A DNA stretch of 64,000 bases. Source: Comamonadaceae bacterium ALPHA2B (GTDB lineage: Bacteria; Pseudomonadota; Gammaproteobacteria; Burkholderiales; Burkholderiaceae_C). Made by a program: the position numbers and the translations under genes. The notes under the pieces were generated by a model. It saw nothing but the letters and a program-made list of their open reading frames with translations. It ran no database searches and was not told the origin of the DNA. Below, in pieces: positions 25,356 to 51,825 of this stretch (the stretch's first letter is position 1; every line of letters begins with the position of its first letter). The stretch spans positions 1 through 64,000 of the forward strand of contig SCOE01000012.1 of NCBI GenBank assembly GCA_005503065.1, given 5' to 3'.

Positions 25356-25841
25356 TCAACCTTCGTCATCGAGTTCCGCGCCTGCCGCCTCGCCGTCGGC
25401 GTGCAGTTCGACCAGGCGCCTCAAGGTTCTCTTCAGCTCCTCGGCACGCGCCAGGCCGAACGGTTCGAGCACACGACGCTCGTGCGCTCGCGCCAGCGCG
25501 ATCAGGTGCTCGACGGCCTTCGCACCTTTGCGGGTGATGCGCACCAGGGTGATGCGCCGGTCGCTGTCGTGGGGCAGACGTTCCACCTGCCCCTTGCCTT
25601 CCATCCTGTCCAGCAGGCGCGTCACTGTCGGCTGCTTCGTGACGGTCACCTGCGCCAGGTCCGTGATGCTGATGGGCTCGCCATCCGCCAGCGAGGCCAT
25701 GACGCGCCACTCCGACACGGAAAAGCCGTGCTGCCGCGCCACCTTGTGGAATTCGCCGGAGATGAGCTGGCTGGCCTGGGCGAGCAGGGCAGGCAGGTAG
25801 TCGTCGACGAAGTGGCGCGAGTTGGGGTCATGCAGGGTCAT
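25356..25841 (-). CDS. MarR-family regulator, divergent from the iorA-like gene
   Basis: This 161-aa MarR protein has an alpha-helical dimer end and a winged helix-turn-helix (GFSVSEWRVMASLADGEPIS; VTVTKQPTVTRLLDRMEGKG). The wing DSDRRITLVRITRKGAK is conserved. MarR proteins are usually ligand-released repressors of the adjacent operon. It sits between the 21.6-25.3 kb operon and the 26-kb catabolic locus, and its own promoter region holds TTTAGGTCTAAA. In Variovorax a MarR protein is known, as I recall, to repress the auxin-degradation locus and to be released by indole-3-acetate. By position this is the best candidate here. Confidence 0.92.
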   Translation of the reverse strand: MTLHDPNSRHFVDDYLPALLAQASQLISGEFHKVARQHGFSVSEWRVMASLADGEPISITDLAQVTVTKQPTVTRLLDRMEGKGQVERLPHDSDRRITLVRITRKGAKAVEHLIALARAHERRVLEPFGLARAEELKRTLRRLVELHADGEAAGAELDDEG

Positions 25842-25875
25842 AGAGCACCCATCGTACAGATGGCACAGCGATTGC

Positions 25876-25918
25876 TTTGCTAGGGTAATGCATGATTGTG
25901 AATAGATTTAGGTCTAAA
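25876..25918. promoter_or_regulatory. iorA/marR divergent promoter with TTTAGGTCTAAA operator candidate
   Basis: The palindrome TTTAG-GT-CTAAA occupies 25907-25918. A possible promoter reading into the iorA-like gene is TTTGCT (25876-25881) and TGAATA (25899-25904), which would put the palindrome over the start of transcription. The same arrangement recurs at 38286-38328. Confidence 0.55.
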
Positions 25919-25983
25919 CAGAATCATCCAATCGATCCTGATGGATGGCCGCACCCCACGGCGGCGATGGAGCACGTACACCG

Positions 25984-28155
25984 ATGGCCGAGCGATCTTT
26001 CGTCGAAGAAGTGAAGAAGCTGCGCCTTGCCGAAGGCCAGACCTTCCGCGGTGAGGGCATTCTGGCCGTCACCAAGGCGTTGCTGGAATCGGGCGTCTCG
26101 TACGTCGCGGGCTACCAGGGCGCACCGATCTCGCACCTGATGGATGTGCTGGCCGATGCGCAGGACATCCTGGCGGACCATGGCATCCGGTTCGAGAACA
26201 GCGCCAGCGAGGCCACGGCCGCCGCCACGCTGGCCGCCTCGGTCAACTACCCGCTGCGCGGCGCCGTGACCTTCAAGGCAACGGTGGGCACCAATGTGGC
26301 GTCGGATGCCTTGGCCAACCTGGCCTCCGGCGGCGTCACCGGCGGCGCACTCATCATCGTGGGCGAGGACTACGGCGAGGGCTCCTCCATCATGCAGGAG
26401 CGCAGCCATGCCTTCGCGATGAAGTCGCAGATGTGGATGCTCGATCCGCGGCCCAACCTGCCCAGCATCGTGCAGGCCGTCAAGACGGGCTTCGAGCTCT
26501 CCGAGGCCAGCAACACGCCGGTGATGCTGCAACTGCGCATCCGCGCCTGCCATGTGCACGGCCAGTTCACTGCTTCCGACAACCGGCGCGCCAGCTTCAC
26601 GCTGAAGGAGGCGCTGGAGAACCCGCAGCGCGACGTGGACCGCATCGTGCTGCCGCCCGCAAGCTTCCTGCACGAGCAGGAGAAGATCAAGCAGCGCTGG
26701 CCCGCCGCAGTGCGCTTCATCGAGGAGCGCGGCCTCAACGAGTTCTTCGCCGAGGGCGCCGACGACATCGGCATCATCGTGCAGGGCGGTTGCTACAACA
26801 CGCAGGTGCGGGCGCTGGAGCGCCTGGGCCTGGCCGACGTGTACGGCCGCTCCAAGGTGCCGCTGTACGTGATGAACGTGGCCTACCCGGTCATCGACAG
26901 CGAGGTGCTGCGCTTCTGCGAGGGCAAGCGCGCCGTGCTGGTGGTCGAGGAAGGCCAGCCCAACTTCGTCGAGCAGAACATCGCGACCATCCTGCGCCAG
27001 GCGGGCAGCAGCACCGCGCTGCACGGCAAGGACATGCTGCCCGTGGCGGGCGAGTACACCGCGCAGGCCGTGATGGCCGGCACCCGCGCCTTCTGCGAGC
27101 GCTACGGCCGCCTGGCGCCCAAGGCGGCGCCAGCCGAGGTGGTGCCCGCCAGGCCGCGCAAGATCATTCCGCTGATCAGCGAAGCGCAGCTCATGCCCTT
27201 GGAGCGCAGCGTGCACGCGCGCCCGCCGGGCTTCTGCACCGGCTGCCCCGAGCGCCCCATCTTCAGCGCCATGAAGCTGGTGCAGCGCGAGCTGGGCCAG
27301 CACCATGTGTCGGCCGACATCGGCTGCCACCTGTTCTCCATCCTGCCGCCCTTCAACATCGGCAACACCACCATGGGCTATGGCCTGGGCGCTGCAGGCG
27401 CGGCAGCCCTCAACACCCAGGCCGACAAGCGTGCCATCGCGGTGATGGGCGATGGCGGCTTCTGGCACAACGGCCTGACCAGCGGCATCGCCAACGCCGT
27501 GTTCAATCAGAGCGACAACCTGACGGTCGTGGTCGACAACAACTACACCTCGGCCACCGGCGGGCAGGACATCCTCTCTTCCAAGGCCGTCAACGCCACG
27601 CGCAGCACCGGCCACGAGATCGAACAGGCGGTGCGCGGCGTGGGCGTGAAGTGGGTCAAGACCCTGCGCCGCACCTACGACGTGGCCGGCATGCGCGACA
27701 CGCTCAGGGAGGCGCTGACGACCAAGGAGAAGGGCCCCAAGGTCATCATTGCCCAGTCCGAGTGCATGCTGAACCGCCAGCGCCGCGAGAAGCCGCTGGT
27801 GCGCAAGGCCGTCGCCGATGGCAAGCGCATGGTGCGCGAGAAGTTCGGCGTCGACCCCGACACCTGCACCGGCGACCATTCCTGCATCCGCCTTTCGGGC
27901 TGCCCCTCGCTGTCGATCAAGCCGAACCCCGATCCGCTGCGGCAGGAGCCCGTGGCCGCAGTCATGGACAGCTGCGTGGGCTGTGGCGTATGCGGCGAGG
28001 TCTCGCACGCGGCCGTGCTCTGTCCTTCCTTCTACAAGGCGCAGGTGGTGAGCAACCCCACCGGCTGGGACCGGCTGCGCGAACGCGTGCGCGGCGCCGT
28101 CATCGGCTGGCTGCAACGCCGCGACGCCGAGCGCCGTGCGCGTCTGGCCTTCTGA
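25984..28155 (+). CDS. indolepyruvate ferredoxin oxidoreductase alpha-like subunit
   Basis: This 723-aa TPP-dependent 2-oxoacid:ferredoxin oxidoreductase large subunit resembles IorA. It has the N-terminal pyruvate-oxidoreductase-like domain (YVAGYQGAPISHLMDVL). The TPP motif GDGGFWHNGLTSGI lies near residue 489, with NNYTSATGGQ following. C-terminal ferredoxin-type Cys groups (CTGDHSCIRLSGC and CVGCGVC, about 628-680) close the protein. The ATG at 25984 is preferred to 25945 because family sequence starts there. It is paired with the next gene. In this locus I suggest it oxidatively decarboxylates isatinate (2-aminophenylglyoxylate, an aryl 2-oxoacid) to the anthraniloyl level. Arylpyruvate oxidation is the known family reaction; the isatinate role is inference. 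It is probably the first gene (A) of the iad-type locus. Confidence 0.88.
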   Translation: MAERSFVEEVKKLRLAEGQTFRGEGILAVTKALLESGVSYVAGYQGAPISHLMDVLADAQDILADHGIRFENSASEATAAATLAASVNYPLRGAVTFKATVGTNVASDALANLASGGVTGGALIIVGEDYGEGSSIMQERSHAFAMKSQMWMLDPRPNLPSIVQAVKTGFELSEASNTPVMLQLRIRACHVHGQFTASDNRRASFTLKEALENPQRDVDRIVLPPASFLHEQEKIKQRWPAAVRFIEERGLNEFFAEGADDIGIIVQGGCYNTQVRALERLGLADVYGRSKVPLYVMNVAYPVIDSEVLRFCEGKRAVLVVEEGQPNFVEQNIATILRQAGSSTALHGKDMLPVAGEYTAQAVMAGTRAFCERYGRLAPKAAPAEVVPARPRKIIPLISEAQLMPLERSVHARPPGFCTGCPERPIFSAMKLVQRELGQHHVSADIGCHLFSILPPFNIGNTTMGYGLGAAGAAALNTQADKRAIAVMGDGGFWHNGLTSGIANAVFNQSDNLTVVVDNNYTSATGGQDILSSKAVNATRSTGHEIEQAVRGVGVKWVKTLRRTYDVAGMRDTLREALTTKEKGPKVIIAQSECMLNRQRREKPLVRKAVADGKRMVREKFGVDPDTCTGDHSCIRLSGCPSLSIKPNPDPLRQEPVAAVMDSCVGCGVCGEVSHAAVLCPSFYKAQVVSNPTGWDRLRERVRGAVIGWLQRRDAERRARLAF

Positions 28156-28174
28156 GGCGGGGAACGACACCGTC

Positions 28175-29719
28175 ATGACGCAAGCAACCCAACCCATCAA
28201 GATCGCGATCCTCGCCATGGGCGGCGAGGGCGGCGGCGTGCTGGCCGACTGGCTGGTGGACCTGGGCGAGGCCAACGGCTGGATCGCGCAGACCACCTCG
28301 GTGCCCGGCGTGGCCCAGCGCACCGGTGCCACCATCTACTACGTCGAGATGTACCCCGAGGCCCAGGCCCATGCCGACGGCGGCCAGCCCGTGCTGGCGC
28401 TGATGCCCCTGCCGGGCGACGTGGACGTGGTGTTGTGCTCCGAACTCATGGAGGCCGGCCGCGCCGTGCAGCGCGGCCTGGTCACGCCCGAGCGCACCAC
28501 GCTGGTCGCCTCCACGCACCGCGTCTATTCCATCGCCGAGAAGAGCGCCATGGGCGACGGCCGCGTCGACAGCACGCAACTGCTGGCCCACGCCGGGCAG
28601 GCGGCGCAGCGCTTCGTGCGCTTCGACATGGCCGAGGCCGCAGCGCAGAACGGCAGCGTGATCAGCGCCGTGCTCTTCGGCGCGCTGGCCGGCACCGGCG
28701 TGCTGCCCTTCGCCCGCGAACAATTCGAGGCCACCATCGAGCGCGGCGGCGTGGGCGTCAAGCCCAGCCTGAAGGCCTTCGGCGCGGCATTCACGCGGGC
28801 GCAGGCTGGTGAGGCGCCTGTGCAGGCCGAGCCCGTGGTGCCCACGACGGCGCGCGCGACCGCGCCCGATCCGGTCATCCAGGCGCTGCTCACGCGCTTG
28901 TACGCCGAGTTTCCGGCTCAAGCCCAGCCGCTGATGCTCGAAGGCCTGCGCCGCCTCGTCGACTACCAGGACCCGGCCTATGCCGAGCTCTACCTCGGCC
29001 GCATGGCCGAGATTTGCCAACTTCCCGACGACCCGGCGCGGACCTTGGCCTGCGAGACCGCTCGGCACCTGGCACTGTGGATGAGCTACGAGGACACCGC
29101 CCGCGTCGCCCAACTCAAGACGCGCTCCAGCCGCTTCGCCCGCGTGAAGCAGGAGACCGGCGTCGATGCCGACCAGGTCATCGCCATCAACGAATACATG
29201 CATCCCGGCCTGCGCGAGATCTGCGAGACCTTGCCCGGCGGCCTGGGCCGCTGGCTGATGGGCTCCGGCGCGCCGCGCCGGCTGGTGGAGGGCATGACGA
29301 AGAAGGGCCGCGTGGTGCAGACCAGTTCGGTGCACGGCTTCCTGCTGCTCTCGGCGGTGGCCTTCGCCCGCCGCTGGCGCCGCAGCACGATGCGCTATGC
29401 CGAAGAGAACGGCCGCATCGAGCAGTGGCTGCAAGGCATCCGCGAGGCCGCGGCTGCCTCGTCCGATCTGGCGGTGGAACTGGCGCGCTGCCAGAAGCTG
29501 GTCAAGGGTTACAGCGACACCCATGAGCGCGGCGTGCGCAACTACGACACCGTCATGGCCGCCTGGCGCCAAGCGGGCACCACGCTGCCGCCCGCCACGT
29601 TGCGCGCCTGGCGCGAAGCGGCGCTGGCGGACGAGCATGGCCATGCACTGAAGGCCGCGCTGGCCCGGCACGCGCAAGCGGCCATCGTCCCCGCTGCGAC
29701 TGTGGTCGCCGCAGCCTGA
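28175..29719 (+). CDS. indolepyruvate oxidoreductase beta-like subunit with C-terminal extension
   Basis: This 514-aa partner of the preceding subunit has an N-terminal gamma/beta-type domain (IKIAILAMGGEGGGVLADWL; VPGVAQRTGATIYYVE). A long helical C-terminal region (DUF6537-like, about 230-480, with YADEF-type substitution RLVDYQDPAYAELYL) makes it much longer than classical IorB. Such extended subunits accompany IorA in aromatic-degrading bacteria. The ATG at 28175 follows the iorA-like stop by 19 bp. An Ala-rich C-terminus is present. The two subunits should form a cytoplasmic TPP/Fe-S enzyme that needs a ferredoxin partner not obvious in the window. Confidence 0.85.
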   Translation: MTQATQPIKIAILAMGGEGGGVLADWLVDLGEANGWIAQTTSVPGVAQRTGATIYYVEMYPEAQAHADGGQPVLALMPLPGDVDVVLCSELMEAGRAVQRGLVTPERTTLVASTHRVYSIAEKSAMGDGRVDSTQLLAHAGQAAQRFVRFDMAEAAAQNGSVISAVLFGALAGTGVLPFAREQFEATIERGGVGVKPSLKAFGAAFTRAQAGEAPVQAEPVVPTTARATAPDPVIQALLTRLYAEFPAQAQPLMLEGLRRLVDYQDPAYAELYLGRMAEICQLPDDPARTLACETARHLALWMSYEDTARVAQLKTRSSRFARVKQETGVDADQVIAINEYMHPGLREICETLPGGLGRWLMGSGAPRRLVEGMTKKGRVVQTSSVHGFLLLSAVAFARRWRRSTMRYAEENGRIEQWLQGIREAAAASSDLAVELARCQKLVKGYSDTHERGVRNYDTVMAAWRQAGTTLPPATLRAWREAALADEHGHALKAALARHAQAAIVPAATVVAAA

Positions 29720-29733
29720 ACCGAGCCGCTACC

Positions 29734-30738
29734 ATGAACACATCGCCGGCCATTGCGACTCTGCCGCTCAAGGTGGCCGAGGCCCGTACGCTCAACCCGC
29801 TGATCCGTCTGCTGCGGCTGGAGCACGCCGACGGCGCGCCGCTGCCCGGATGGACGCCCGGCGCACACATCCAGGTGCAGGTGCGGCTGCCCGACGGGCA
29901 GACCGACTGGCGCCACTATTCGCTGATCGATCTGGAGGGCGTGGCCGGCACGCCGGGTTTCGCACCCATGGCTTACACCATCGCCGTCCGGCGCGAAGAG
30001 AGCGGCCGCGGCGGCTCCCGCTTCATGCACGAGGGCGTGCGGCCCGGCGACCGTCTTGCCGTGCAGCCGCCGCGCAACGACTTTCCGCTGGAAGAGGGAA
30101 GCGCCCGCGCCGTGCTGCTGGCGGGCGGCATCGGCATCACTCCCCTGGCCAGCATGGCGGCGCGTTGCCGTGCGCAGGGACGGTCCGCGGCCCTGCACTA
30201 TGCCGGCCGCACACGTCCCCTGTTGGCTTTCGCCGACGAACTTCAGGCACTGCTGGGCGCCGACCTGCGCTTGCATGCGGACGACGAGGCCGGCGGCCAG
30301 GGCTTCGACATCGACGCGCTGCTGGACGGCATGGCAGCCGGGGAGCCACTCTACGTCTGCGGCCCCAAGCCCCTGCTCGATGCTGTGCTCGCCGCCGCGC
30401 AGGCGCGCGGCTGGGCGCCGGGCCGCGTGCATTTCGAACTGTTCAGCGCGCCGGCGGTGGAGGCCGGCGACCAGCCCTTCGAGGTCGAACTGGCCCAGTC
30501 CGGCCGGCGGTTCATGGTGCCGGCCGACCAGACGCTGCTGGACTGCCTGATCGAGCACGGCTGCGATCCGCTCTACGACTGCAAGCGCGGCGAATGCGGT
30601 GTCTGCGCCGTGCCCGTGATCGCGGGCGAGCTGGATCACCGCGACTACGTGCTCTCGCAGGCCGAGAAGGACGGCGGGCAGGTGATGCAGATCTGCATCT
30701 CCCGCGCCAAGGGTCCGCGCCTCGTGCTCGACCTGTAG
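29734..30738 (+). CDS. iadC: flavin/2Fe-2S oxidoreductase, reductase for the Rieske dioxygenases
   Basis: This 334-aa class IA-type (PDR/VanB) reductase has an FMN/FAD-binding barrel (WRHYSLIDLEG), an NAD-binding domain (LLAGGIGITPLASMA; YVCGPKPLLDAV) and a C-terminal plant-type [2Fe-2S] ferredoxin domain (CKRGECGVC ... QICIS). It passes electrons from NAD(P)H to a terminal oxygenase. It is the only such reductase in the locus and precedes the first oxygenase pair, so it probably serves both pairs. The symbol follows my recollection of the Variovorax iad order (C next to the D/E dioxygenase) and is less certain than the biochemical family. Confidence 0.88.
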   Translation: MNTSPAIATLPLKVAEARTLNPLIRLLRLEHADGAPLPGWTPGAHIQVQVRLPDGQTDWRHYSLIDLEGVAGTPGFAPMAYTIAVRREESGRGGSRFMHEGVRPGDRLAVQPPRNDFPLEEGSARAVLLAGGIGITPLASMAARCRAQGRSAALHYAGRTRPLLAFADELQALLGADLRLHADDEAGGQGFDIDALLDGMAAGEPLYVCGPKPLLDAVLAAAQARGWAPGRVHFELFSAPAVEAGDQPFEVELAQSGRRFMVPADQTLLDCLIEHGCDPLYDCKRGECGVCAVPVIAGELDHRDYVLSQAEKDGGQVMQICISRAKGPRLVLDL

Positions 30739-30770
30739 GCGCCGAGACCTCCGAACGAGAAAGGCATGCC

Positions 30771-32084
30771 ATGACACGCTACAGAGACAACCCCGATGCG
30801 ATCCGCGCCCTGGTGCAGCCGCAGCAGGTGCACCGCGACCTCTACATCAGCCCCGAGCTCTTCGAGCTGGAGCAGGAGCACTTCTTCGCCAACACCTGGA
30901 ACTACGCAGGCCATGACAGCCAGGTGCCCCAACCGGGCGACTACATCACCGTCGACATTGCCGGCCGGCCGCTGATCGTGGTGCGCCACACCGACGGCAC
31001 GGTCAAGGTGTTGATGAACCGCTGCGCCCACAAGGGCTCGCGCGTGGTCAACGGCGCCTGCGGCAACACCGGCAAGTTCTTCCGCTGCCCCTACCACGCC
31101 TGGACCTTCAGGACCGACGGCGCGCCGCTCGCGATTCCGCTCAAGAACGGCTACGAGGGCACCGGCCTGAAGGATTGCGACGCGTCCAAGGGCCTCGTGC
31201 CGGTGCGGCATGTGCGGCAGTACCGGGGCTTCATCTTCGTCAAGCTCAACGACGTGGGGCAGGACTTCGAGGAGTATTTCGGCGATTCGCTGTCCTCCAT
31301 CGACAACATGGCCGACCGCTCGCCGGAGGGCGAGCTGGAGGTGGCCGGCGGGTGCCTGCGCTTCATGCACCAGTGCAACTGGAAGATGTTCGTCGAGAAC
31401 CTCAACGACACCATGCATCCCATGGTGGCGCACGAGTCCTCGGCCGGCACGGCCAAGTCCATGTGGGCGGGCCAGCCGGCCGACGCGCCCAAGCCCATGG
31501 CCATCGAACAGTTCGTGCCCTTCATGTCCGACTACCAGTTCTTCGACGGCATGGGCGTGCGGGTGTACGACAACGGCCACAGCTTCTCGGGCGTGCACTT
31601 CAGCATCCACAGCAAGTATTCGGGCATCCCGGGCTATGAGGAGGCGATGAAGGTGCGCTACGGCGAGGAGCGCACGGCGCAGATCCTGGGCATGGCGCGG
31701 CACAACACGGTGTACTACCCCAACCTCACGATCAAGGGTGCGATCCAGGCCATCCGCGTGGCACGACCGATCGCGGTGGATCGCACGCTGGTCGAAAGCT
31801 GGACCTTCCGCCTCAAGGGCGCGCCCGACGAACTGCTGCAGCGCACGACCACCTACAGCCGCCTCATCAACTCGCCGTTCTCGGTGGTGGGCCACGACGA
31901 CCTGCAGGCCTACCGCGGCATCCAGGCCGGCCTGCACGCCAGCGGCAACGACTGGGTCAGCCTGCACCGCAACTACGACGAGAACGAGGGCCGCGAGCGC
32001 GAGCAGACCAGCAACGGCACCAACGAGCTGCCCATGCGCAACCAGTACCGGTCGTGGCTCAAGCACATGACCCTGACGATGTGA
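30771..32084 (+). CDS. iadD: Rieske aromatic-ring dioxygenase alpha subunit 1
   Basis: This is the catalytic subunit of a Rieske non-heme iron oxygenase (437 aa). The Rieske [2Fe-2S] ligands are C85/H87 in RCAHKG and C106/H109 in RCPYHAW. The mononuclear iron site lies in the ENLNDTMHPMVAHE segment (about 210-222), with the bridging Asp and two His. It is paired with the small beta subunit that follows. In the iad locus the D/E pair attacks the indole ring of indole-3-acetate; that assignment rests on remembered literature and gene order. The closest relative in the window is the alpha subunit at 40875, with the same length and near-identical layout. Confidence 0.9.
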   Translation: MTRYRDNPDAIRALVQPQQVHRDLYISPELFELEQEHFFANTWNYAGHDSQVPQPGDYITVDIAGRPLIVVRHTDGTVKVLMNRCAHKGSRVVNGACGNTGKFFRCPYHAWTFRTDGAPLAIPLKNGYEGTGLKDCDASKGLVPVRHVRQYRGFIFVKLNDVGQDFEEYFGDSLSSIDNMADRSPEGELEVAGGCLRFMHQCNWKMFVENLNDTMHPMVAHESSAGTAKSMWAGQPADAPKPMAIEQFVPFMSDYQFFDGMGVRVYDNGHSFSGVHFSIHSKYSGIPGYEEAMKVRYGEERTAQILGMARHNTVYYPNLTIKGAIQAIRVARPIAVDRTLVESWTFRLKGAPDELLQRTTTYSRLINSPFSVVGHDDLQAYRGIQAGLHASGNDWVSLHRNYDENEGREREQTSNGTNELPMRNQYRSWLKHMTLTM

Positions 32085-32098
32085 GAGGGCGCACGACC

Positions 32099-32596
32099 AT
32101 GTCCATGCTCACGCCCGCCACCGTCACCCGCGAGCAACTGCTCGACTTCGTCGTGAATGAAGCCCGGCTGCTCGACGAGAAGCGCTTCGACGAATGGAAC
32201 GTGCTCTTCACGGGCGACGGCATCTACTGGGTGCCGCTCACGCCGGGCCAGCCCGACGGACTCACGCACACGTCGCACCTGTACGAGGACAAGCTGCTGC
32301 GCGACCTGCGCATCGAGCGCCTCAAGAGCCCGCGCGCGTTCTCGCAGCAGCCGCCCAGCCGGAGCCAGCATGTGCTGCAGATGCCGGCGGTGGAGTCGCG
32401 CGACGAGGCGGGCAACCGCTTCGTGCTGCGCACGCCCTTCCACTACAGCGAGGCGCAGGCCGACGAGATGCTCTTCCTCACCGGCGTGGCCTGGCACCAC
32501 CTGTGCGTGGAGGGCGGCGAACTGCGCATGATGCTCAAGCGCGTGGACCTGATCAACAGCGACGCCGCGCTGCCGGCGGTGCAGCTTTTCCTGTGA
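32099..32596 (+). CDS. iadE: Rieske dioxygenase beta subunit 1
   Basis: This 165-aa structural beta subunit of an aromatic-ring dioxygenase has a SnoaL-like cone fold (EARLLDEKRFDEWNVLFTGD; IYWVPLTPG; RIERLKSPRAFSQ; LLINSDAALPAVQLF-type end). The ATG at 32099 is chosen over an upstream frame start because family sequence begins there and the alpha stop lies 12 bp upstream. The beta subunit has no cofactor and stabilises the alpha3beta3 enzyme. A homologous beta subunit at 42185 goes with the second alpha subunit. Confidence 0.88.
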   Translation: MSMLTPATVTREQLLDFVVNEARLLDEKRFDEWNVLFTGDGIYWVPLTPGQPDGLTHTSHLYEDKLLRDLRIERLKSPRAFSQQPPSRSQHVLQMPAVESRDEAGNRFVLRTPFHYSEAQADEMLFLTGVAWHHLCVEGGELRMMLKRVDLINSDAALPAVQLFL

Positions 32597-32609
32597 AGCG
32601 GACATCGGC

Positions 32610-34238
32610 ATGATCCACCGCACCGTCCACGGCGCCTTCGCCGCGAGCGCCGCCCGCACGCCGCTGGCGGACTTCCTCTATACCGAGGCCGTCACCGCCG
32701 GGGTCTACGGCATCCCGCCCGGCGCCACGGCCTGGGCCGAGGCCGCGGCCGAGGTCGAGCGCCTGCGCCTGGCCTACGCGCAGGCCGGCTGGGGGCATGG
32801 CCACCGCGTCGGCCTGCTGCTGGAGAACCGGCCGGTCTTCCTGTACCACTGGTTCGCGCTCAACGCCCTGGGCGTGAGCGTGGTGCCCATCAATGCCGAG
32901 ATGCGTTCGGCGGAGCTGGCCTACCTGATCGGCCACAGCGAGATCGGCCTGGCCGTGACGCTGCCGCAGCGCGCCGGCAACCTGGAAGCCGCGGCCGCCC
33001 AGGCCGGCAGGCGGCTGCACACCATGGCGGCGGATGCGGCCGACGTGCCGTCGCCCGTCGAGCCCGCGCCGCGCGCCGACGCGGTGGTGGGCCCCGACAC
33101 CGAATGCGCGCTGCTCTATACCTCCGGCACCACCGGCCGGCCCAAGGGCTGCATGCTGAGCAATGCCTACTTCCTGCGTGCAGGCGAGTGGTATGCGGGG
33201 CTGGACGGCGTGTGCGCCTTCCGCCGCGACCAGGAGCGGCTGATGACGCCGCTGCCGTTGAACCACGTCAACGCGATGGCCTTCTCGACCATGGTGATAC
33301 TGGTGGCCGGCGGCTGCCTGGTGCAGCTGGACCGCTTCCATCCCCGCAGCTGGCTGAAGAGCGCGCGCGACAGCGGCGCCACCATCGTGCACTACCTGGG
33401 CGTGATGCCGGCCATGCTGCTGGCCGCCGCCGAGGCGCCGGCCGACCGCGACCATGCGATCCGCTGGGGCTTCGGCGCAGGCGTGGACCGCAAGAACCAC
33501 GCGTCCTTCGAGGCCCGTTTCGGTTTCCCTTTGGTGGAGGCCTGGGCCATGACCGAGACCGGCGCCGCTGCCTGCATCATGGCCAACCACGAACCGCGCC
33601 AAGTGGGCACCAGTTGCTTCGGCCGGGCCGAGGGCTTTGTCGACGTGCGCCTGGTCGACGACGAAGGCCGGGACGTGCCCGCCGGCACGCCCGGTGAACT
33701 GCTGGTGCGCTCCAGCGGCGACGACCCGCGGCGCCATTTCTTCGGCGGTTACCTGAAGGACCAGACGGCCACCGACGAAGCCTGGCAGGGCGGCTGGTTC
33801 CACACCGGCGACATGGTGCGGCGCGACGAGGCGGGCAGCCTCTATTTCGTGGACCGCAAGAAGAACGTCATCCGCCGCAGCGGCGAGAACATCTCGGCGG
33901 TGGAGGTGGAGAGCGTGCTCAACCAGCATCCGGCCGTGAAGGTCTCTGCCGTCGCCGCCACGCCCGATGCGGTGCGCGGCGACGAGGTGCTGGCCTGCAT
34001 CGTCCTCGATCCCGAGGCCGCGGCCACGCCGGACGAGGTGCTCGCCGCCGACATCGTGCGCCATGCGCTGGCTCAACTGGCCTACTACAAGGCACCGGGC
34101 CACGTGGCCTTCGTCGAGGCCCTGCCGCTCACGGCCTCGCAGAAGATCCAGCGTGGCGAGCTGCGGCAGATGGCGCAGGCGCTGCCTGGCGGCGCCGGCT
34201 GCTTCGACACCCGCGCCATGAAGAAAAGGCAGGACTGA
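32610..34238 (+). CDS. AMP-dependent acyl/aryl-CoA ligase 1
   Basis: This 542-aa ANL-superfamily adenylate-forming enzyme has the P-loop-like YTSGTTGRPKG (about 168-178), AWAMTETGA, the hinge YFVDRKKNVIRRSGENIS, and the catalytic-Lys region SQKIQRGEL near the C-terminus. It activates a carboxylate as CoA thioester. In the proposed route it would make the CoA ester of the oxygenated indole-acetate, setting up the retro-aldol step by the next two genes. Its stop overlaps the thiolase-like start (TGATG). The specificity cannot be read from sequence. Confidence 0.88.
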   Translation: MIHRTVHGAFAASAARTPLADFLYTEAVTAGVYGIPPGATAWAEAAAEVERLRLAYAQAGWGHGHRVGLLLENRPVFLYHWFALNALGVSVVPINAEMRSAELAYLIGHSEIGLAVTLPQRAGNLEAAAAQAGRRLHTMAADAADVPSPVEPAPRADAVVGPDTECALLYTSGTTGRPKGCMLSNAYFLRAGEWYAGLDGVCAFRRDQERLMTPLPLNHVNAMAFSTMVILVAGGCLVQLDRFHPRSWLKSARDSGATIVHYLGVMPAMLLAAAEAPADRDHAIRWGFGAGVDRKNHASFEARFGFPLVEAWAMTETGAAACIMANHEPRQVGTSCFGRAEGFVDVRLVDDEGRDVPAGTPGELLVRSSGDDPRRHFFGGYLKDQTATDEAWQGGWFHTGDMVRRDEAGSLYFVDRKKNVIRRSGENISAVEVESVLNQHPAVKVSAVAATPDAVRGDEVLACIVLDPEAAATPDEVLAADIVRHALAQLAYYKAPGHVAFVEALPLTASQKIQRGELRQMAQALPGGAGCFDTRAMKKRQD

Positions 34239-36663: not shown

Positions 36664-36679
36664 GGCCGAAGGAGACACG

Positions 36680-39596: not shown

Positions 39597-39706
39597 GCGC
39601 CCGAATCTTTCCCGCTGGCGACGCCAGTGCCTCCGCGGCAGCGGTGCGGGCGTCACGCTTACCGAGCCTTTCCGCTTCTTTTTTTGTTCTTTCTGGAGCC
39701 TTCTCG

Positions 39707-40852: not shown

Positions 40853-40874
40853 GCCTTCTTCAACCGCCACCACC

Positions 40875-42664: not shown

Positions 42665-42701
42665 TCCTTCCGTTCCATTTCCTCCCAACCAGGAGTTCCC
42701 C

Positions 42702-43871: not shown

Positions 43872-43932
43872 GCGGCGCGAAGGGAGCGCCGCGAATGACA
43901 ACGAACGCAACGACGCAAAGGACCCTCCGACC

Positions 43933-44984
43933 ATGACCTGGGACGTCGCCCTCATCCTGGGCATCGACGGCTTGGCCAACGGCGCCATCTACCTGCTGGC
44001 TGGCCTTGGCCTGGTGCTGATCTTCTCGGTCACGCGGGTGGTGTTCGTGCCCTTCGGCGACATCGCCGCTTTCGCCGCGCTGACGCTTGCGGCCTTCGAG
44101 ACCGGCAGGCTGCCGCCCACCATCGGGATGGTGATTTTCCTGGCCGTGCTGGCGCTGCTCACCGAGGTGGGCAGCCTGCTGCGCAAGGGCGAGGCGCGGC
44201 ACATTCCCAAGGCGTTGCTGCTGTGGGGCGTGCTGCCACTGGTGCCCTGCGCCATCGCCTGGGCGGCAGCGCGCGCCGGCGTGCCGGCGGCGCTGCAGAT
44301 CGCGGCCTCGGTGCTGCTGGTGGTGCCGGTGGCGCCGCTGCTGGCGCGGGTGGTCTTCCAGCCCATCGCCGACGCCTCGGCGCTGGTGCTGCTGATCGTG
44401 TCGCTGGCGCTGCACTTCCTGTTGTCGGGGCTGGGACTGTTGTTCTTCGGGCCCGAGGGCTCGCGCACCGGTGCGCTGACGTCGGCCACGCTGACGCTGG
44501 GCGACGGCTTCACCGTCAGCGGCCAGGTGGTGCTGATGGTGAGTGCGGCCATCGTGCTCAGCGGCCTGTTCTTTCTGGTGTTCGAGCGGACCGTCATCGG
44601 CAAGGCGCTGCGCGCCACGGCAGTGAATCGCGTGGGTGCGCGGCTGGTGGGCATCCGGCCGGCGCGCACCGCCCTGCTGGCCTATGGCTGCGCCTCGCTG
44701 CTGGCGGGCCTGATCGGTGTGCTGATCGCGCCGGTGACCACCATGTACTACGACTCCGGCTTCATCATCGGCCTCAAGGCCTTCGTGGCGGCCATCATCG
44801 GTGGGCTGGTGAGCTACCCGGCCACGGCGCTGGGCGCGCTGGCCGTGGGCATCATCGAGAGCTTCGCCTCCTTCTGGAGTGGTGCGCTCAAGGACGTGAT
44901 CGTGTTCAGCCTGCTCATCCCGGTGCTGATGGCTCGCTCGTACATGGCCCGCCACCACGAGGAAGAGGCCGAGGAGATCGACCA

Positions 44985-44988
<4 letters not shown>
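43933..44988 (+). CDS. branched-chain-type ABC permease, LivH-like, enlarged
   Basis: This 351-aa inner-membrane permease of the LivH type begins LILGIDGLANGAIYLLAGLG, and the family motif TAVNRVGARLVGIRPAR is present. It is about 60 residues longer than usual because of an inserted hydrophobic region (about 70-130) likely to add transmembrane helices. With the next two genes it forms the importer for the three binding proteins. Its stop overlaps the fused LivM-LivG start by ATGA. Confidence 0.88.
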
Positions 44989-46768
<1,780 letters not shown>

Positions 46769-46772
<4 letters not shown>

Positions 46773-47572
46773 GCCCCCGCACGGCCGTCATGAACGGCGC
46801 GCGCACCGCAGGCGATGCCGATGTCGCCGCAGCGACTGGCGGCACGCCGATGCTTGAGATCACCGATCTGCACGTCGGCTACGGTCAGGTCGAGGCGGTG
46901 CGCGGCGTGTCGCTTGCGCTGCAGCCAGGACAGATCATCTCGGTCATCGGTCCCAATGGCGCGGGCAAGACCACGCTGCTGGCCGCAGCCATGGGCCTGC
47001 TGCCCTCGCGCGGCACGATCCGTTTCGAGGGCGAGGACCTGTCGGGCCTGGACGTGGAGTCGCGCGTGGAGCGCGGGCTTTGCCTGGTGCCCGAGAAGCG
47101 CGAGCTTTTCGGCGAACTCACGGTGCTGGACAACCTGCGTCTGGGCGCCTATTCGCGCCGCCTGCGTTCGGACGCGCTGCGCCAGCGGCTGGACGGCGTG
47201 TACGCGCGCTTTCCGCGTCTGGCCGAGCGCCGCGGGCAGCGGGCCGACACGCTCTCGGGCGGTGAACGGCAGATGCTCGCGGTGGGCCGCGCGCTCATGT
47301 CCGCGCCGCGGCTCCTGATGCTGGACGAGCCCAGCCTGGGCCTGGCGCCGCTGATCGTGCAGGAGATTCTCTCCATCGTGCGCCAGCTGCGCGAGGACGG
47401 CGTCTCGATCCTGCTGGTCGAGCAGAACGCACGCGCCGCACTGGAGAGCTCGGACTTCGGCTACGTGCTGGAGACGGGCGAGGTGGCGCTGTCCGGCGAC
47501 TCCGCTGCTCTTGCGGAGGATGAGCGCGTGCGCGCGACCTACCTGGGCGGAGGCACCCATGACGACGACTGA
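46769..47572 (+). CDS. LivF-like ABC transporter ATPase
   Basis: This 267-aa second ATPase of the importer has Walker [10 protein letters not shown], the signature [15 protein letters not shown], Walker [12 protein letters not shown] and the H-loop [10 protein letters not shown]. All its ATPase motifs are canonical, unlike the degenerate signature in the fused partner. An N-terminal extension of about 25 residues precedes the domain, so an internal start is possible. The ATG at 46769 overlaps the LivM-LivG stop. The gene end overlaps the following ligase start. Confidence 0.9.
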
Positions 47573-49166
47573 GGCCGAGGCGCTGCTGCCGGTGGCGCGG
47601 CGCACGCTGCCGCAGATGCTGGACAGGCAGGCCGCGCAGTTCGGCGATGCGCCGGCCGTGCGTGTCGGGGGGCAGCGCTGGCGTCATGACGAGCTGCCGC
47701 ACCGGGCCGCGGCCCGTGCGGCGGCACTGCAGGCGGCGGGCATCGCGCGCGGCGACCGCGTCGCCATCCTGGCGGGCAACCGTCACGAGTTCCTGGAAGC
47801 CTTCCTCGGCTGCGGCTGGGTCGGCGCGGTGGCCGTGCCCATCAACACGGCCTCGATGGGGCCGCAGATCGAGTACTTCCTGGCCAACAGCCAGGCCAGG
47901 CTGCTGGTCATCGAGGCCCAGTACCTGCCGAGGCTGGTCACGGCCGACCTGGCCCGCACCTCGCTTCAGCGAATCTGGGTGCTGGAAGGCGAGGGTGTCC
48001 CGTCAGCAGCCGATGTTGCGGGCGTCGTGGTCGAAACATGGCCACAGGCTGGCGAGGAGGTCGTTGCAGCCGAGGTCGGCCCGGCCGATACGCTGGCCAT
48101 CCTCTACACCTCGGGCACCACCGGTCCTTCCAAGGGCGTGCTGTGCCCGCATGCGCAGTACTACTGGTGGGGCGTCAACAGCCTGCGGGTGCTGGGCGTG
48201 CAGGCCGAAGACGTGCTGTGCACCACATTGCCGCTGTTCCACATCAATGCCCTCAACACCTTCGCCCAGGCCTGCCTGTCGGGGGCCGAGGTGGTGTTCG
48301 AAGGCCGCTTCTCGGCATCGGGCTTCTGGCCGGCCATGCAGGCCTGCGGTGCGACGGTGGTCTACCTGCTGGGTGCGATGGTGCCGATCCTGCTGGCGCA
48401 GCCGGAAGGCGCCGTCGAGCGCCAGCACCGCGTCCGCATCGGCCTGGGCCCCGGTGTGCCGGGGATCGCCGGCGAGGCCTTCGCAACGCGCACTGGCGTG
48501 CGGCTCCTCGAAGGCTACGGCTCCACCGAGACCAACTTCGTCATCGCCACTGCGCCCGATTCGCCGCGGGGCGGAGTGATGGGCTGGGTGCTGCCGGGCT
48601 TCGAGGCCCGCGTGGCCGACGAACACGACGCGGAGCTGCCCGACGGTCAGGCCGGCGAGCTGCTGCTGCGTGCGCATGAGCCGCATGCCTTCGCCAGCGG
48701 CTACTTCAACATGCCCGACAAGACCGTCGAGGCCTGGCGCAACCTCTGGTTCCACACCGGGGACCGGGTCGTGCGCGAGTCGGACGGGGCCCTGCGTTTC
48801 GTGGATCGGATCAAGGATGCGATCCGCCGTCGGGGCGAGAACATCTCCTCCTTCGAAGTCGAGCAGGTGCTGCAGAGCCACCCGGCGGTGGCGACCGTCG
48901 CGGTGTACCCGGTGCGCTCCGAACTGGCGGAAGACGAGGTGATGGCCGCACTCATCCTTCGCGAGGGGGAAGCGCCGGCGCCGCAGGAACTGGCCGCGTG
49001 GTGCGAGGCCCGGCTGCCGTACTTTGCCGTACCGCGCTGGTTGGACTTCGTTCAGGATCTGCCGCGCACCGAGAACGGCAAGGTGCAGAAATACAAGCTG
49101 CGCGAGCGTGGAGTGACGGCCTCGGCCTGGGAGCACACCCGGTCTGCGCGTTCGCGTGGGAGCTAG
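47559..49166 (+). CDS. AMP-dependent acyl/aryl-CoA ligase 2
   Basis: This 535-aa ANL-superfamily ligase has [11 protein letters not shown] (about 181-191), [10 protein letters not shown], the hinge [20 protein letters not shown] and the C-terminal Lys region [12 protein letters not shown]. The start lies inside the end of livF (14-nt overlap). It has low similarity to the ligase at 32610 outside the motifs, so it probably activates a different acid, for example imported indole-3-acetate or the later anthranilate-level product. It is followed 2 bp later by an SDR gene. Confidence 0.87.
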
Positions 49167-49168
49167 GG

Positions 49169-49954
49169 ATGGAACGGCGTGCAGCGATCGGCTCCCGCGA
49201 AAGTGGGCACGACATCCAGGAGCGTGTGGCCATCGTGACAGGTGCGGCGCAGGGGCTGGGTGCCTCGATGGCCCGCGCGCTTGCCGGCTCGGGCGCCAAG
49301 GTCGTGCTTTCGGATACGAACGCAGAAGTTCTGCGGGCCGCAGAGCTGCTGGCGGCGCATGGCGCCAGTTGCCTCGGGGTGGTGGCAGACGTCGCGGACG
49401 AGAAGCAATGGCAGCTCCTGTTGCGCCAGGCGGTGGAGGCCTATGGATTCGTCGACGTCCTGATCAACAATGCGGCCCGCACGCCGTCGACGTCGATCTG
49501 GGACATCACGCAGGAGGAATGGGATTCGGTGATGGCAGTGAATCTGCGCGGGTGCTTTCTCGGCTGTCGGACTGTCGGGCGTCAGATGCGCGAGCGCGGA
49601 CGCGGCGGGCGCATCATCAATCTGGCCTCCATCGCGGGGCAGCAGGCGAGCCAGGCGAGCGGCGCGCACTATGCGGCATCCAAGGCGGGTGTCCTGGCGC
49701 TGACGCGTACCTTCGCGGCGGAGTTCGCCTCCGATGCGATCACCGTCAATGCGGTGGCGCCGGCAGCAATCCGGGGGCCGGTCCTGGATGCCCTGGATAC
49801 GGGCCGCCGTACCGACCTGTTGTCGAGCATCCCGCTCGGACGCTTCGGCGGCCCGGACGAGGTGAGTGGTGCCGTGCTTTTTCTGGTGTCTGACGCCGCA
49901 GCTTTCGTGACGGGCGCCACCTTGGACGTGAACGGCGGACGCCTGATGAGATGA
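49169..49954 (+). CDS. SDR-family oxidoreductase
   Basis: This 261-aa classical SDR has TGAAQGLG near 23-30, NNAA, the Ser region NLASIAG and catalytic HYAASK. The ATG at 49169 follows the ligase stop by two bases with GGAG inside the ligase end. It is probably an alcohol or acyl-CoA-level dehydrogenase of the same pathway. The substrate is unknown. Confidence 0.86.
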   Translation: MERRAAIGSRESGHDIQERVAIVTGAAQGLGASMARALAGSGAKVVLSDTNAEVLRAAELLAAHGASCLGVVADVADEKQWQLLLRQAVEAYGFVDVLINNAARTPSTSIWDITQEEWDSVMAVNLRGCFLGCRTVGRQMRERGRGGRIINLASIAGQQASQASGAHYAASKAGVLALTRTFAAEFASDAITVNAVAPAAIRGPVLDALDTGRRTDLLSSIPLGRFGGPDEVSGAVLFLVSDAAAFVTGATLDVNGGRLMR

Positions 49955-50006
49955 AGCCATCCTCCGGGACTGACGCGGCAGACATGAAGACGAACGAGGT
50001 GGAGCA

Positions 50007-50789
50007 ATGAACGACATCCGGGGCAGGACCAGCGGCCCGCGGCACGCGCTCGTGACGGGCGGGGGCACCGGCATCGGGGCGGCGGTGGCGCAGCGGCTCG
50101 CGTCCGAGGGCATCAACGTGACCGTGTTGGGGCGTCGGCGCGAGAAGCTCGCGGCGCTCGTGACCGGCGAACCGGCGCACATGCATGCCGTGGTGGCCGA
50201 TGTGTCGGATGCCGGGCAGGTGGCGGCCGCTCTCGCCGATGCGACCCAGCGCTTCGGTGCGGTGCAGGTGCTGGTCAACAACGCCGGGGCTGCGGAGAGC
50301 GCGCCGTTCCTGAAGATGGACGAGGCGCTCTGGCGGCGCATGCTGGACGTCAACCTGACGGGAACCATGATCTGCACCCAGGCCATGCTGCCCGGCATGC
50401 TCGAGGCCCGCTGGGGACGCGTCGTCAACATCGCCAGCACCGCCGGGCAGGTGGGCTACGCCTACGTGGCGGCGTACTGCGCGGCCAAGCACGGCGTGAT
50501 CGGCCTCACACGCGCACTGGCGCTGGAACTGGCGACCAAGGGCGTCACTGTCAACGCCGTGTGTCCCGGATACACCGAGACCGACATCGTGCAGCAAAGC
50601 ATCGCGCGGGTCGTCGCGAAGACCGAGCGCACGGCCGAGCAGGCGCTTGCCGAGTTCGTCAAGTCCAATCCCCAGGGCCGGCTCGTGCAGCCGCGGGAAA
50701 TCGCCGACGCGGTGGCCTGGCTCTGCAGCGAGGGCGCAGGCGCGGTCACGGGGCAGTCCATCTCGGTCAGCGGCGGCGAAGTCACCTGA
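50007..50789 (+). CDS. SDR-family oxidoreductase (3-hydroxyacyl/hydroxybutyrate dehydrogenase-like)
   Basis: This 260-aa SDR has TGGGTGIG, NNAGAAES, Ser in NIASTAGQVG and catalytic YCAAK. The C-terminal part (VNAVCPGYTETDIV; NPQGRLVQPREIADAVAWLC) resembles 3-hydroxybutyrate and 3-hydroxyacyl-CoA dehydrogenases. It lies 52 bp after the previous SDR and 32 bp before the second MarR gene, in the same direction, and is probably part of the same transcript. Confidence 0.87.
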   Translation: MNDIRGRTSGPRHALVTGGGTGIGAAVAQRLASEGINVTVLGRRREKLAALVTGEPAHMHAVVADVSDAGQVAAALADATQRFGAVQVLVNNAGAAESAPFLKMDEALWRRMLDVNLTGTMICTQAMLPGMLEARWGRVVNIASTAGQVGYAYVAAYCAAKHGVIGLTRALALELATKGVTVNAVCPGYTETDIVQQSIARVVAKTERTAEQALAEFVKSNPQGRLVQPREIADAVAWLCSEGAGAVTGQSISVSGGEVT

Positions 50790-50821
50790 TTCACAGAAAC
50801 GCAGAGGCGAAGAACATCCAT

Positions 50822-51385
50822 ATGGCCACCCATGCCAAGAATTTCAGGCTCGTCCAGGCTCTGGGCGACGAGCACATCGGCCTGGAAGCGCGTGCTCAGG
50901 TGGACGATCATCTCGACACCAAGATCTGGTTGCGCCTTCTGGCGTGCAGCACGCAGATCGAGCGGCAGATCCGGCAGCTGCTGCGCACCCGATTCGCAAC
51001 CACGCTGCCGCGCTTCGACTACCTGGCGCAGTTGGAGCGGCACCCTGAGGGCCTGCGCATGAACGTGTTGTCGCGCTTCCTCATGGTCACCGGGGGCAAC
51101 GTGACCGGCCTGACGGACCAACTGGTGAAGGAGGGTCTGGTGCAGCGCGGCGACGACCCGGAAGACAGGCGCTCCTGGCGCGTCGCGCTCACGCAGACAG
51201 GACGCACGGAATTCGCCCGAATGGCGGCGGAGCACGAACGCTGGCTTGCCGCATTGTTCGAGGGATTGCCGCCGAGTACCAAGGATGCGCTGTACGAACA
51301 CCTGGGTCGGTTGCGCGTCCATCTCGTCCGGCGGGCCGAGGAGATGCACCTCGCCACGGCGGATGCCGCGGGGCCGGGCCGATGA
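50822..51385 (+). CDS. MarR-family regulator 2
   Basis: This 187-aa MarR protein has an extended N-terminus and a winged helix-turn-helix (MNVLSRFLMVTGGNVTGLTD followed by QLVKEGLVQ, wing DPEDRRSWRVALTQTG). It is embedded near the end of the locus, co-directional with the catabolic genes and overlapping the thioesterase start by ATGA. It should therefore be induced with them. A second MarR in the same locus could give feedback control or sense a downstream intermediate. Two MarR genes in the auxin-degradation hotspot of Variovorax agree with what I remember of that locus. Confidence 0.9.
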   Translation: MATHAKNFRLVQALGDEHIGLEARAQVDDHLDTKIWLRLLACSTQIERQIRQLLRTRFATTLPRFDYLAQLERHPEGLRMNVLSRFLMVTGGNVTGLTDQLVKEGLVQRGDDPEDRRSWRVALTQTGRTEFARMAAEHERWLAALFEGLPPSTKDALYEHLGRLRVHLVRRAEEMHLATADAAGPGR

Positions 51386-51825
51386 CCGGATCAGGGGCGG
51401 TGGTCCCGCCGCCGCCGACGCCGTTCGTGCGCCAGGTGCCGATCCGCTTTTCTCACTGCGATCCGGCCGGCATCGTCTTCTTCCCGCAGTACCTGGTGAT
51501 GTTCAATCAGCTGGTGGAGGACTGGTTCAATGAAGGGCTCAGGGTGCCCTACGCGCAGATGATCGAGCACAGGCGCATCGGCCTGCCGATCGTCCGGCTG
51601 GAGTGCGACTTCAAGTCGGTCAGCCGCATGGGGGATCTTGTTTCCATGTCGTTGGCGGTGGAGCGCGCAGGCGTCCGATCTCTCGGCCTCGCGCTCGAGT
51701 GCCGGGGTGGGGGAGCGCTTCGCGTGGCTTCGCGGCAGGTGCTGGTGTTCACCGACCTGGCGACGCACCGGTCCATCGAGATGCCCGGCGACGTGCGAAG
51801 CCGCCTTCAGGCCTCATGGTCCTGA
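51382..51825 (+). CDS. 4-hydroxybenzoyl-CoA-type acyl-CoA thioesterase
   Basis: This 147-aa hotdog-fold thioesterase has the 4HBT active-site segment RFSHCDPAGIVFFPQYL, including the catalytic Asp, and VRLECDFKSVSRMGD. It hydrolyses aromatic or short acyl-CoA esters. As last gene of the locus, coupled to the MarR gene, it may release anthranilate or another acid from its CoA ester or recycle CoA from dead-end esters. It converges on the lrp-type gene one base away. Confidence 0.87.
   Translation: MTGSGAVVPPPPTPFVRQVPIRFSHCDPAGIVFFPQYLVMFNQLVEDWFNEGLRVPYAQMIEHRRIGLPIVRLECDFKSVSRMGDLVSMSLAVERAGVRSLGLALECRGGGALRVASRQVLVFTDLATHRSIEMPGDVRSRLQASWS

Follow-up and report, generated by a model that had tools for sequence, protein, structure and literature searches.

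We describe a gene cluster for the degradation of the plant hormone (auxin) indole-3-acetate (IAA) in Comamonadaceae bacterium ALPHA2B (contig SCOE01000012.1, positions 1 to 64,000; this whole stretch of 64,000 nucleotides, with a GC content of 67%, is called the window). The cluster occupies ~21.5–51.8 kb. Its gene content is best explained, with a probability that we put at about 0.75, by an iad-type aerobic IAA catabolic locus in which IadG and IadH would form a retro-aldolase, IadI an isatin hydrolase and IadAB the exit to anthraniloyl-CoA. Gene identities, order, conserved residues and co-occurrence are read directly from sequences; from these we infer the retro-aldol chemistry, the IadAB reaction and the anthraniloyl-CoA exit. 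The iad locus itself is already known and what is new are the enzyme assignments: in the open-access literature searched (supplements aside) we found no retro-aldolase role of IadG, no isatinate oxidation by IadAB and no function of the second Rieske oxygenase pair.

The pathway that a preliminary description had read from the window (activation as a CoA ester, a cleavage that gives isatin and acetyl-CoA, conversion of isatin to isatinate by hydrolysis and oxidative decarboxylation to anthraniloyl-CoA or anthranilate) is largely supported by residue and gene-neighbourhood evidence. Such evidence favours this predicted chemistry over the published assignment of IadG as a ketothiolase and IadH as an alcohol dehydrogenase. 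Published work is cited below by PMC number and for a part of the text of each paper.

A Variovorax-type iad locus

Family searches place a MarR gene (MarR1, 25356–25841) on the minus strand, divergent from co-oriented genes that continue to 51825; all other genes of the cluster are on the plus strand. This layout, with ~26 kb of co-oriented genes, and all gene families named in the preliminary description were thus recovered. From sequence comparison we firmly assign the region to the Variovorax-type iad loci, known in kind, here in a Pseudacidovorax-like genome. The divergent MarR gene is of the IAA-binding type and lies beside iadAB and iadCDE, and iadF to iadJ and the gene of the binding protein IadK2 follow in the same order.

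Named genomes were scanned by alignment with IadH. Of 568 candidate stretches 536 coded for a relative, and we kept the 80 best; the scan may lack records that are very close to the window. The eight best records are 97–98% identical to the IadH of the window; six come from Pseudacidovorax, one is labelled Xenophilus aerolatus and one is a Pseudomonadota metagenome-assembled genome. The 17-gene order MarR-A-B-C-D-E-F-G-H-I-J-SBP1-SBP2-D2-E2-SBP3-permease (SBP, binding protein) was found in 56 of the 80 loci, a repetition far beyond chance; 15 of the other 24 loci are interrupted by contig ends and nine are rearranged or lack some genes. The G-H-I genes are contiguous in 79 of the 80 loci and F-G-H-I-J in 72, and D2 occurs together with E2 in 66. 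Loci that failed an open-frame length filter were dropped, and therefore the number of homologues per gene varies from 52 to 88. An IadH with an in-frame TAG (locus L010, genome G200) was omitted from all alignments; an IadH with an internal TGA (L113, G510) was dropped, with the intact IadG of that locus kept.

The identity with iad loci claimed in the preliminary description therefore holds: the MarR-A-B-C-D-E-F-G-H-I-J-SBP order is shared with named Variovorax, and the window encodes orthologues of the structurally solved IadD, MarR_73 and IadK2. Compared gene by gene, the order is the same in V. paradoxus NBRC 15149 and Root473; the record of strain CL14 (HS33) was outside the comparison. 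The right end (transporter ATPase, second ligase Lig2, the short-chain dehydrogenases/reductases SDR2 and SDR3, MarR2 and a 4HBT thioesterase) is also the same in these two genomes as well as in V. guangxiensis and V. gossypii. SDR3 and the 4HBT thioesterase, both present in the window, were not found in the matching segment of two Pseudacidovorax (L123, L124).

The cluster had been drawn as 25356–51825. Its right end stands; the left end moves to ~21547. Four genes at ~21547–25340 keep their order and their orientation relative to MarR in three of three genomes checked, two of Variovorax and one of Pseudacidovorax (loci L163, L164 and L165), and because of this conservation we count them, on sequence grounds, as part of the cluster. 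According to family searches they encode an octopine-dehydrogenase-like protein (ORF 21547–22671), a 3-hydroxyacyl-CoA dehydrogenase (ORF 22496–23680, true start probably later), an alpha/beta hydrolase (23677–24477) and a zinc alcohol dehydrogenase-like protein (24474–25340). By gene count from MarR_73 this arm fits genes 77–74 of CL14.

Some loci are arranged differently. In L091 and L095 (Alcaligenaceae and Castellaniella) MarR1-A-B occurs with G-H-I, with none of the genes IadC to IadF in between; the G-H-I block of these loci may be fed by a different first oxygenase. Three more distant genomes, G217 (L106 and L161), G111 (L107 and L159) and G392 (L105 and L160), have the locus split: the IadAB block is separate from a block of G-H-I and Lig2, and in the first two genomes the latter is separate from IadCDE and IadJ as well.

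Sensing, uptake and first oxidation

In a search of the Protein Data Bank (PDB) MarR1 matched the structurally solved Variovorax MarR_73 (E-value 8.7e-75). This match, along with Ser28 and Arg46 present in 52 of 52 aligned rows, identifies it as the IadR/MarR_73 orthologue, an IAA-responsive repressor. The best-conserved stretch between MarR1 and iadA (25881–25904, no strand assigned) is weakly palindromic and may be an operator or promoter; its mean best identity over 47 other MarR1-iadA intergenic regions is 0.86, versus 0.48 (maximum 0.58) for 200 shuffled 24-mers.

IadD (30771–32084), the Rieske oxygenase alpha subunit with IAA as substrate, aligns along its entire length with the solved IadD of Variovorax (7yls/9o71, E-value 9.5e-255). 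With cluster, iron and IAA-pocket positions taken from PMC10374108, Cys85/His87/Cys106/His109 and His216/His221/Asp377 are kept in 75 of 75 sequences, as are the pocket residues His311, Lys322, Arg329 and Tyr362. The oxygenase reductase IadC (Fer2; 29734–30738) and the beta subunit IadE (32099–32596) were assigned by family and synteny. SBP1 (38427–39596) matches the structure of the IAA-binding protein IadK2 (E-value 4e-217); when its numbering is anchored at Trp172, there is agreement at six of the seven other published positions, and the Thr125 position is Ala. SBP2 (39707–40852) has Val and Leu at the Ser104 and Trp172 positions; since these are the positions where IadK3 departs from IadK2 (W172L/S104V, PMC10374108), we identify SBP2 with IadK3.

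Roles of IadCDE, IadJ, MarR_73 and IadK2 have been published for Variovorax. IAA would be taken up via IadK2 and the ABC transporter and would derepress the locus through MarR1. The preliminary description had IAA oxygenated to 3-hydroxy-2-oxindole-3-acetate; the product stands and the step is refined, as in published data the first oxidation is split between a monooxygenase, IadCDE, and a dehydrogenase, IadJ (PMC12633357). IadCDE would thus put one oxygen onto IAA, and IadJ (37498–38232), an SDR with T-G-x3-G-I-G, Ser, Tyr and Lys in 82 of 82 sequences, would oxidize the hydrated product to dioxindole-3-acetate. The AMP-forming acyl-CoA ligase IadF (32610–34238) would then make the CoA thioester of dioxindole-3-acetate, a role proposed from family, synteny and mutant data (PMC12633357).

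One could argue that the locus serves mainly another aromatic acid, with IAA incidental, as a second oxygenase, ligase and MarR are present along with two further binding proteins. This appears extremely improbable: MarR1, IadD and IadK2 keep the IAA-contact residues, and Root473, which has the same gene order, is one of the strains studied as IAA degraders, with IAA-induced iad genes (PMC11630574).

Side-chain cleavage by IadG and IadH

Genes iadF, G, H and I have been published as needed for anthranilate in Variovorax. A preprint describes a reductive side-chain removal with IadG as ketothiolase and IadH as alcohol dehydrogenase (PMC12633357). The sequences point elsewhere: IadG (34238–35413) and IadH (35410–36663, 417 aa) are most likely a retro-aldolase giving isatin and acetyl-CoA.

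The nearest solved relatives of IadG are 9myr (Sal), 6ok1 (Ltp2) and 4u4e. Its AlphaFold model (pLDDT 81.4, pTM 0.87) has as best fold match the Sal-Shy(DUF35) aldolase 9myr (E-value 1.4e-32, TM 0.87), followed by Ltp2-ChsH2(DUF35), 6ok1. Where thiolases have their nucleophile, Gly stands in 87 of 87 IadG and Cys in the acetyl-CoA acetyltransferase of P. furiosus (7yvy); Gly at this position excludes thiolysis, and Sal releases acetyl-CoA (PMC12329534). The YDDY motif, with the catalytic Tyr of YD-x-[FY], is present in all 87 sequences, and so are Gln329 and Gln334, which align with Gln347 and Gln352 of Sal.

In IadH a DUF35 domain, with the zinc Cys4 in 88 of 88 sequences as in a zinc DUF35 partner, is fused to a degenerate SDR; the DUF35 protein that had been paired as a separate gene with the thiolase fold is thus the N-terminal half of IadH. 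The Tyr/Lys pair of the SDR is Phe/Lys in 78 sequences, Tyr/Lys in three, Tyr/Gln in two and other in five, and the Gly motif (TGxxxGxG) is altered. The IadH model (pLDDT 82.0) has an SDR fold with 5u4s as best match.

Two readings were tried and rejected, that of IadG as a thiolase, with the nucleophilic Cys absent in 87 of 87, and that of IadH as an SDR/alcohol dehydrogenase, given its motif loss and the control IadJ, intact in 82 of 82.

IadI (36680–37498) belongs to the cyclase family. Its best matches are isatin hydrolases (5nnb, E-value 7.5e-113), with kynurenine formamidase at 9.1e-5. The metal-binding His, His and Asp together with GLQC were found in 86 of 86 sequences, with one Thr/Ala exception at a neighbouring position; GLQC/GLAS with a Mn site is the isatin-hydrolase signature (PMC6117287). 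Dioxindole-acetate, isatin, isatinic acid and anthranilate have been reported in a Pseudomonas (PMC8383072).

In the mechanism that we propose, IadG with the DUF35 half of IadH would cleave dioxindole-3-acetyl-CoA to isatin and acetyl-CoA, and IadI would convert isatin to isatinate. Tyr284 of IadG would act as the base, with Asp286 in place of the Cys of Sal, whose YDCY motif has Tyr302 and Cys304 as catalytic residues (PMC12329534). Such a cleavage should need no thiolysis, NAD or redox step, and the SDR half of IadH is largely degenerate.

Several observations weigh against the retro-aldolase. True thiolases also match the IadG model (TM 0.76–0.84), therefore the fold ranks the candidates but does not decide between them. 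IadG lacks the acid residue of both Sal (Cys304) and Ltp2 (the second Tyr, Tyr344), having Asp286 and Gln334 in their place in 87 of 87; as Asp replaces the catalytic Cys, we call IadG Sal-like rather than Sal or Ltp2. Both Tyr and Lys are kept in three of 88 IadH (3/25 representatives at 90% clustering, 0/8 at 80%), and 78 of the 88 keep Lys, with Phe. Upstream of IadI, Jiang et al. see C8H7NO2, the dioxindole formula, and not isatin (PMC12633357); a retro-aldolase would therefore require isatin to be reduced by another enzyme. Finally, two of five distant genomes with IadH (G265 and G392) have no IadD match at 1e-60, and the G-H-I block may therefore serve other entries too.

The published alternative, in which IadG and IadH yield dioxindole and IadI is perhaps a broad-specificity amidase, comes from mutant metabolomics of V. 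paradoxus CL014, where C8H7NO2 accumulates without iadI (PMC12633357). We regard it as quite improbable, with the thiolase nucleophile missing in 87 of 87 IadG, the Tyr/Lys pair missing in 85 of 88 IadH, whose Gly motif is altered, and the isatin-hydrolase signature present in IadI; also, by our own chemical reasoning, the substrate is a tertiary alcohol without a 3-keto group.

IadAB and the anthraniloyl-CoA exit

IadA (25984–28155), a thiamine pyrophosphate-dependent IorA-like subunit, falls into the IOR-alpha family below its cut-off, and IadB (28175–29719), an IorB-like subunit with POR and DUF6537 domains, scores over the NF006179 cut-off. A ferredoxin-like Cys-rich stretch at the C-terminus of IadA was read by eye; a PDB search with IadA gave no match at 1e-5. 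From family and co-occurrence we propose that the two are subunits of an isatinate:ferredoxin oxidoreductase.

The co-occurrence concerns proteins of family NF006101, a fusion of a flavin monooxygenase with an old yellow enzyme (OYE), an architecture that we take to be that of 2-aminobenzoyl-CoA monooxygenase/reductase (ACMR). The model's own name is salicylyl-CoA 5-hydroxylase/oxidoreductase, and therefore the substrate of the ACMR-type protein of the window's own genome is not settled. That protein, encoded on contig C9, is a monooxygenase-OYE-like fusion scoring 1358.7 bits (cut-off 1078) and its gene lies beside a MarR2-like gene and an enoyl-CoA hydratase gene.

In 398 genomes of the phylum we scored at most two candidates per genome for NF006101 and for IadA. 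NF006101 matched in 71 genomes at 1e-250 (64 over cut-off). IadA matched in 29 at 1e-200, and 23 of these, with full-length identity of at least 63%, were counted; the other six (G019, G225, G231, G139, G191 and G205) have 51–56% identity or partial matches of 78–79%. Four of the six (G019, G225, G231 and G191) are among the 71 ACMR genomes, with a distance of 4.6 kb in G225; G139 and G205 are not.

An ACMR-type gene was present in 23 of the 23 genomes with such IadA versus 48 of 375 others (p 2e-19), or, by genus, in 14 of 14 versus 32 of 199 (p 8e-11); these counts are of related genomes and not of independent events, eight of the 23 belonging to one genus (g117). For full-length IadH the figures are 8 of 8 genomes versus 63 of 390 (p 7e-7). 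IadA and ACMR genes lie within 35 kb of each other in 14 of the 23 genomes and 7 of the 14 genera, the closest being 332 bases apart. Since all 23 close-IadA genomes hold an ACMR-type gene, 14 of them within 35 kb, we think that IadAB probably turns isatinate into anthraniloyl-CoA. The reaction would be an oxidative decarboxylation, and the product would be passed on to the ACMR-type enzyme, whose gene lies elsewhere in the genome. For anthranilate, a route through 2-aminobenzoyl-CoA is established in Azoarcus (PMC4539516) and has been reported for an indole degrader (PMC6221969).

Local arrangements vary. The order IadA-IadB-4HBT-ACMR was seen in L156 and L158, co-oriented F-G-H-I-ACMR-4HBT-Lig2 in L105, and IadA and ACMR genes as divergent neighbours in L151. 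In L153, L154, L155 and L157 IadAB, an IadI homologue and ACMR are clustered, and no full-length IadH was found in these genomes (G194 has an SDR-like match only).

Separately, we noted stretches with isatin hydrolase and IadAB genes, mostly with an ACMR-type gene, and with no IAA oxygenase genes (L151 of G265, L153, L154, L155, L157 and, partly, L162/L160); perhaps these are stand-alone modules of isatin degradation.

On the other side, no linkage of the ACMR-type gene is seen in the window's own genome or in the Variovorax examined; in V. gossypii no NF006101 match exceeds the cut-off, and that of G392 falls just short of it. Besides, a Variovorax segment iadC-K2, without iadAB, already restores anthranilate (PMC12633357), therefore IadAB is not essential for anthranilate formation. 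A 53% identical IadA paralogue, found elsewhere in the own genome and in that of Root473, might stand in for this activity. Isatinate accumulation could also result from overexpression rather than from the lack of IadAB.

It is conceivable, if rather unlikely, that IadAB only makes free anthranilate or 2-aminobenzaldehyde non-oxidatively and that ACMR is a general anthranilate route of the same soil bacteria. In cultures anthranilate was seen as the end product, and C7H7NO was detected (PMC12633357), which we ourselves identify with the formula of 2-aminobenzaldehyde; ACMR-type genes are, furthermore, present in 71 of the 398 genomes. However, a shared lifestyle would not lead one to expect that IadA and ACMR genes are physically linked in 14 of 23 genomes and in 7 of 14 genera, and the Cys-rich stretch of IadA and the POR domain of IadB are as in CoA-dependent ferredoxin oxidoreductases.

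As another sink, anthranilate 1,2-dioxygenase was considered and rejected: TIGR03228 matches in the own genome are all below cut-off, and the best of them (contig C91, partial translation) scores higher against benzoate dioxygenase.

Lig2 (47559–49166), an AMP-forming ligase over the NF004808 cut-off, is weakly proposed to be an anthranilate-CoA ligase; the proposal stays weak because in L100 a Lig2-like gene (59%) occupies the place of IadF. SDR3-like genes adjoin the ACMR-type gene in L151, L154 and L157 and lie 2.9 kb from it in L155.

The second Rieske pair and MarR2

Two Rieske oxygenases had been noticed before; to the second alpha subunit, IadD2 (40875–42188), a beta subunit of its own has to be added, IadE2 (42185–42664, a 46% match to IadE). 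IadD2 is 57% identical to IadD and has the cluster and iron ligands in 68 of 68 sequences. The pockets differ at two of nine positions: at 211 IadD has Leu in 70 of 75 sequences and Gln in five, versus Ile or Val in IadD2, and at 311 it has His in 75 of 75 versus Gln in 68 of 68. Gln311 is derived, since His is present in the more distant IadD sequences from L128, L129 and L130. The D2 sequences form their own clade (FastTree, support 0.95), and IadD2 thus reads as an intact, specialised paralogue. No reductase gene of its own was found in the cluster.

Oxidized IAA (oxIAA), the plant's own inactive IAA catabolite, could be the substrate of IadD2E2. We propose it because the adjoining IadK3 has been reported to bind oxIAA weakly (PMC10374108). 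Against it stands a report that oxIAA is not depleted in a locus deletion (in the part of PMC12633357 cited), an observation which alone neither shows nor excludes consumption.

MarR2 (50822–51385) is a regulator of the IadR2/MarR_50 type. For MarR_50, PMC9613470, as far as cited here, gives no ligand or DNA site and only gene 51 as derepressed in its mutant. Among the best PDB matches of MarR2 there were only MarR-type and other transcriptional regulators with unspecific names (3boq the best), with no clue to a ligand. We considered 12 ACMR regions, picked by hand and not at random: in seven a MarR2-like gene (41–53%) lies within ~4 kb of the ACMR-type gene, and in the own genome and two Variovorax the match starts <80 bases downstream of it. 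Regions L156 and L158 have a MarR1-like gene instead, and in L105, L151 and L153 no MarR2-like gene was found near ACMR. We put forward, as a proposal only, that the ligand of MarR2 may be a CoA ester.

One could then speculate about a CoA-tethered pathway with two entries, where IadCDE would take IAA and IadD2E2 would take plant oxIAA to dioxindole-3-acetate, the branches merging at IadF and continuing through IadGH to the IadAB exit, with MarR2 sensing 2-aminobenzoyl-CoA. As a whole this scheme is tentative, and we hold it rather doubtful.

Other genes of the cluster and its surroundings

The third binding protein SBP3 (42702–43871) is followed by a branched-chain-type ABC transporter (43933–47572) made of a permease (43933–44988), a permease-ATPase fusion (44985–46772) and an ATPase (46769–47572). 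SDR2 (49169–49954) and SDR3 (50007–50789) come after Lig2. MarR2 and the 4HBT-type thioesterase (51382–51825), which close the cluster, are additions to the gene list of the preliminary description.

Directly to the right, at 53407–54039 on the minus strand, we observed a protein that has FeS and 4Fe-4S dicluster domains and might serve as electron partner of a ferredoxin-dependent IadAB. To the left of the cluster lie genes of a radical SAM protein with a BATS domain (biotin-synthase type, 19964–20986) and of a glyoxalase-family protein (20575–21471).

Implications

Plant roots are shielded against too much auxin by bacteria that carry iad loci, and work is under way to transfer the locus to further root bacteria (PMC12633357). 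With the evidence from residues and gene neighbourhoods, the steps after dioxindole-acetate, the role of the second oxygenase and the ligand of MarR_50 each become a one-enzyme test. The transplanted iadC-K2 cassette omits IadAB, a step that, we suggest, may carry carbon into central metabolism.

Comparison with known systems

The closest known system is the iad locus of V. paradoxus CL14 (HS33), which is alike in gene order, in MarR_73 with the IAA residues, in IadCDE and IadF–J and in IadK2/K3. The host of the window is different, being Pseudacidovorax-like, and the likeness is drawn via other Variovorax (NBRC 15149, Root473 and others). With isatin hydrolase A of Labrenzia aggregata (5nnb) IadI shares similarity over the full length, the metal motif HxGTHxDxP and GLQC.

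Sal-Shy(DUF35) (9myr) and Ltp2-ChsH2(DUF35) (6ok1) share with IadGH the thiolase fold, Gly at the nucleophile position, the Tyr of the YD motif and a zinc DUF35 partner; in Sal acetyl-CoA is the leaving group, as proposed for IadG. The motifs differ (YDDY in IadG, YDCY in Sal and YDHF in Ltp2), the DUF35 of IadH is fused to a degenerate SDR and not to MaoC, and the substrate of IadG would be an oxindole. A DUF35-thiolase partnership also exists in BbsAB of anaerobic toluene degradation, where the SDR BbsCD has inactive pseudoenzyme subunits (PMC10818641). However, BbsAB is a true thiolase, unlike IadG, and in IadH the degenerate SDR is fused to DUF35; by analogy with BbsCD, one idea is that the SDR domain of IadH might dock an active SDR.

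In Aromatoleum IAA is likewise converted to 2-aminobenzoyl-CoA, through the iaa pathway (cited in PMC9613470). This pathway differs in being anaerobic and in its gene set, and for iad the convergence on the same CoA ester would follow from the assignments proposed here.

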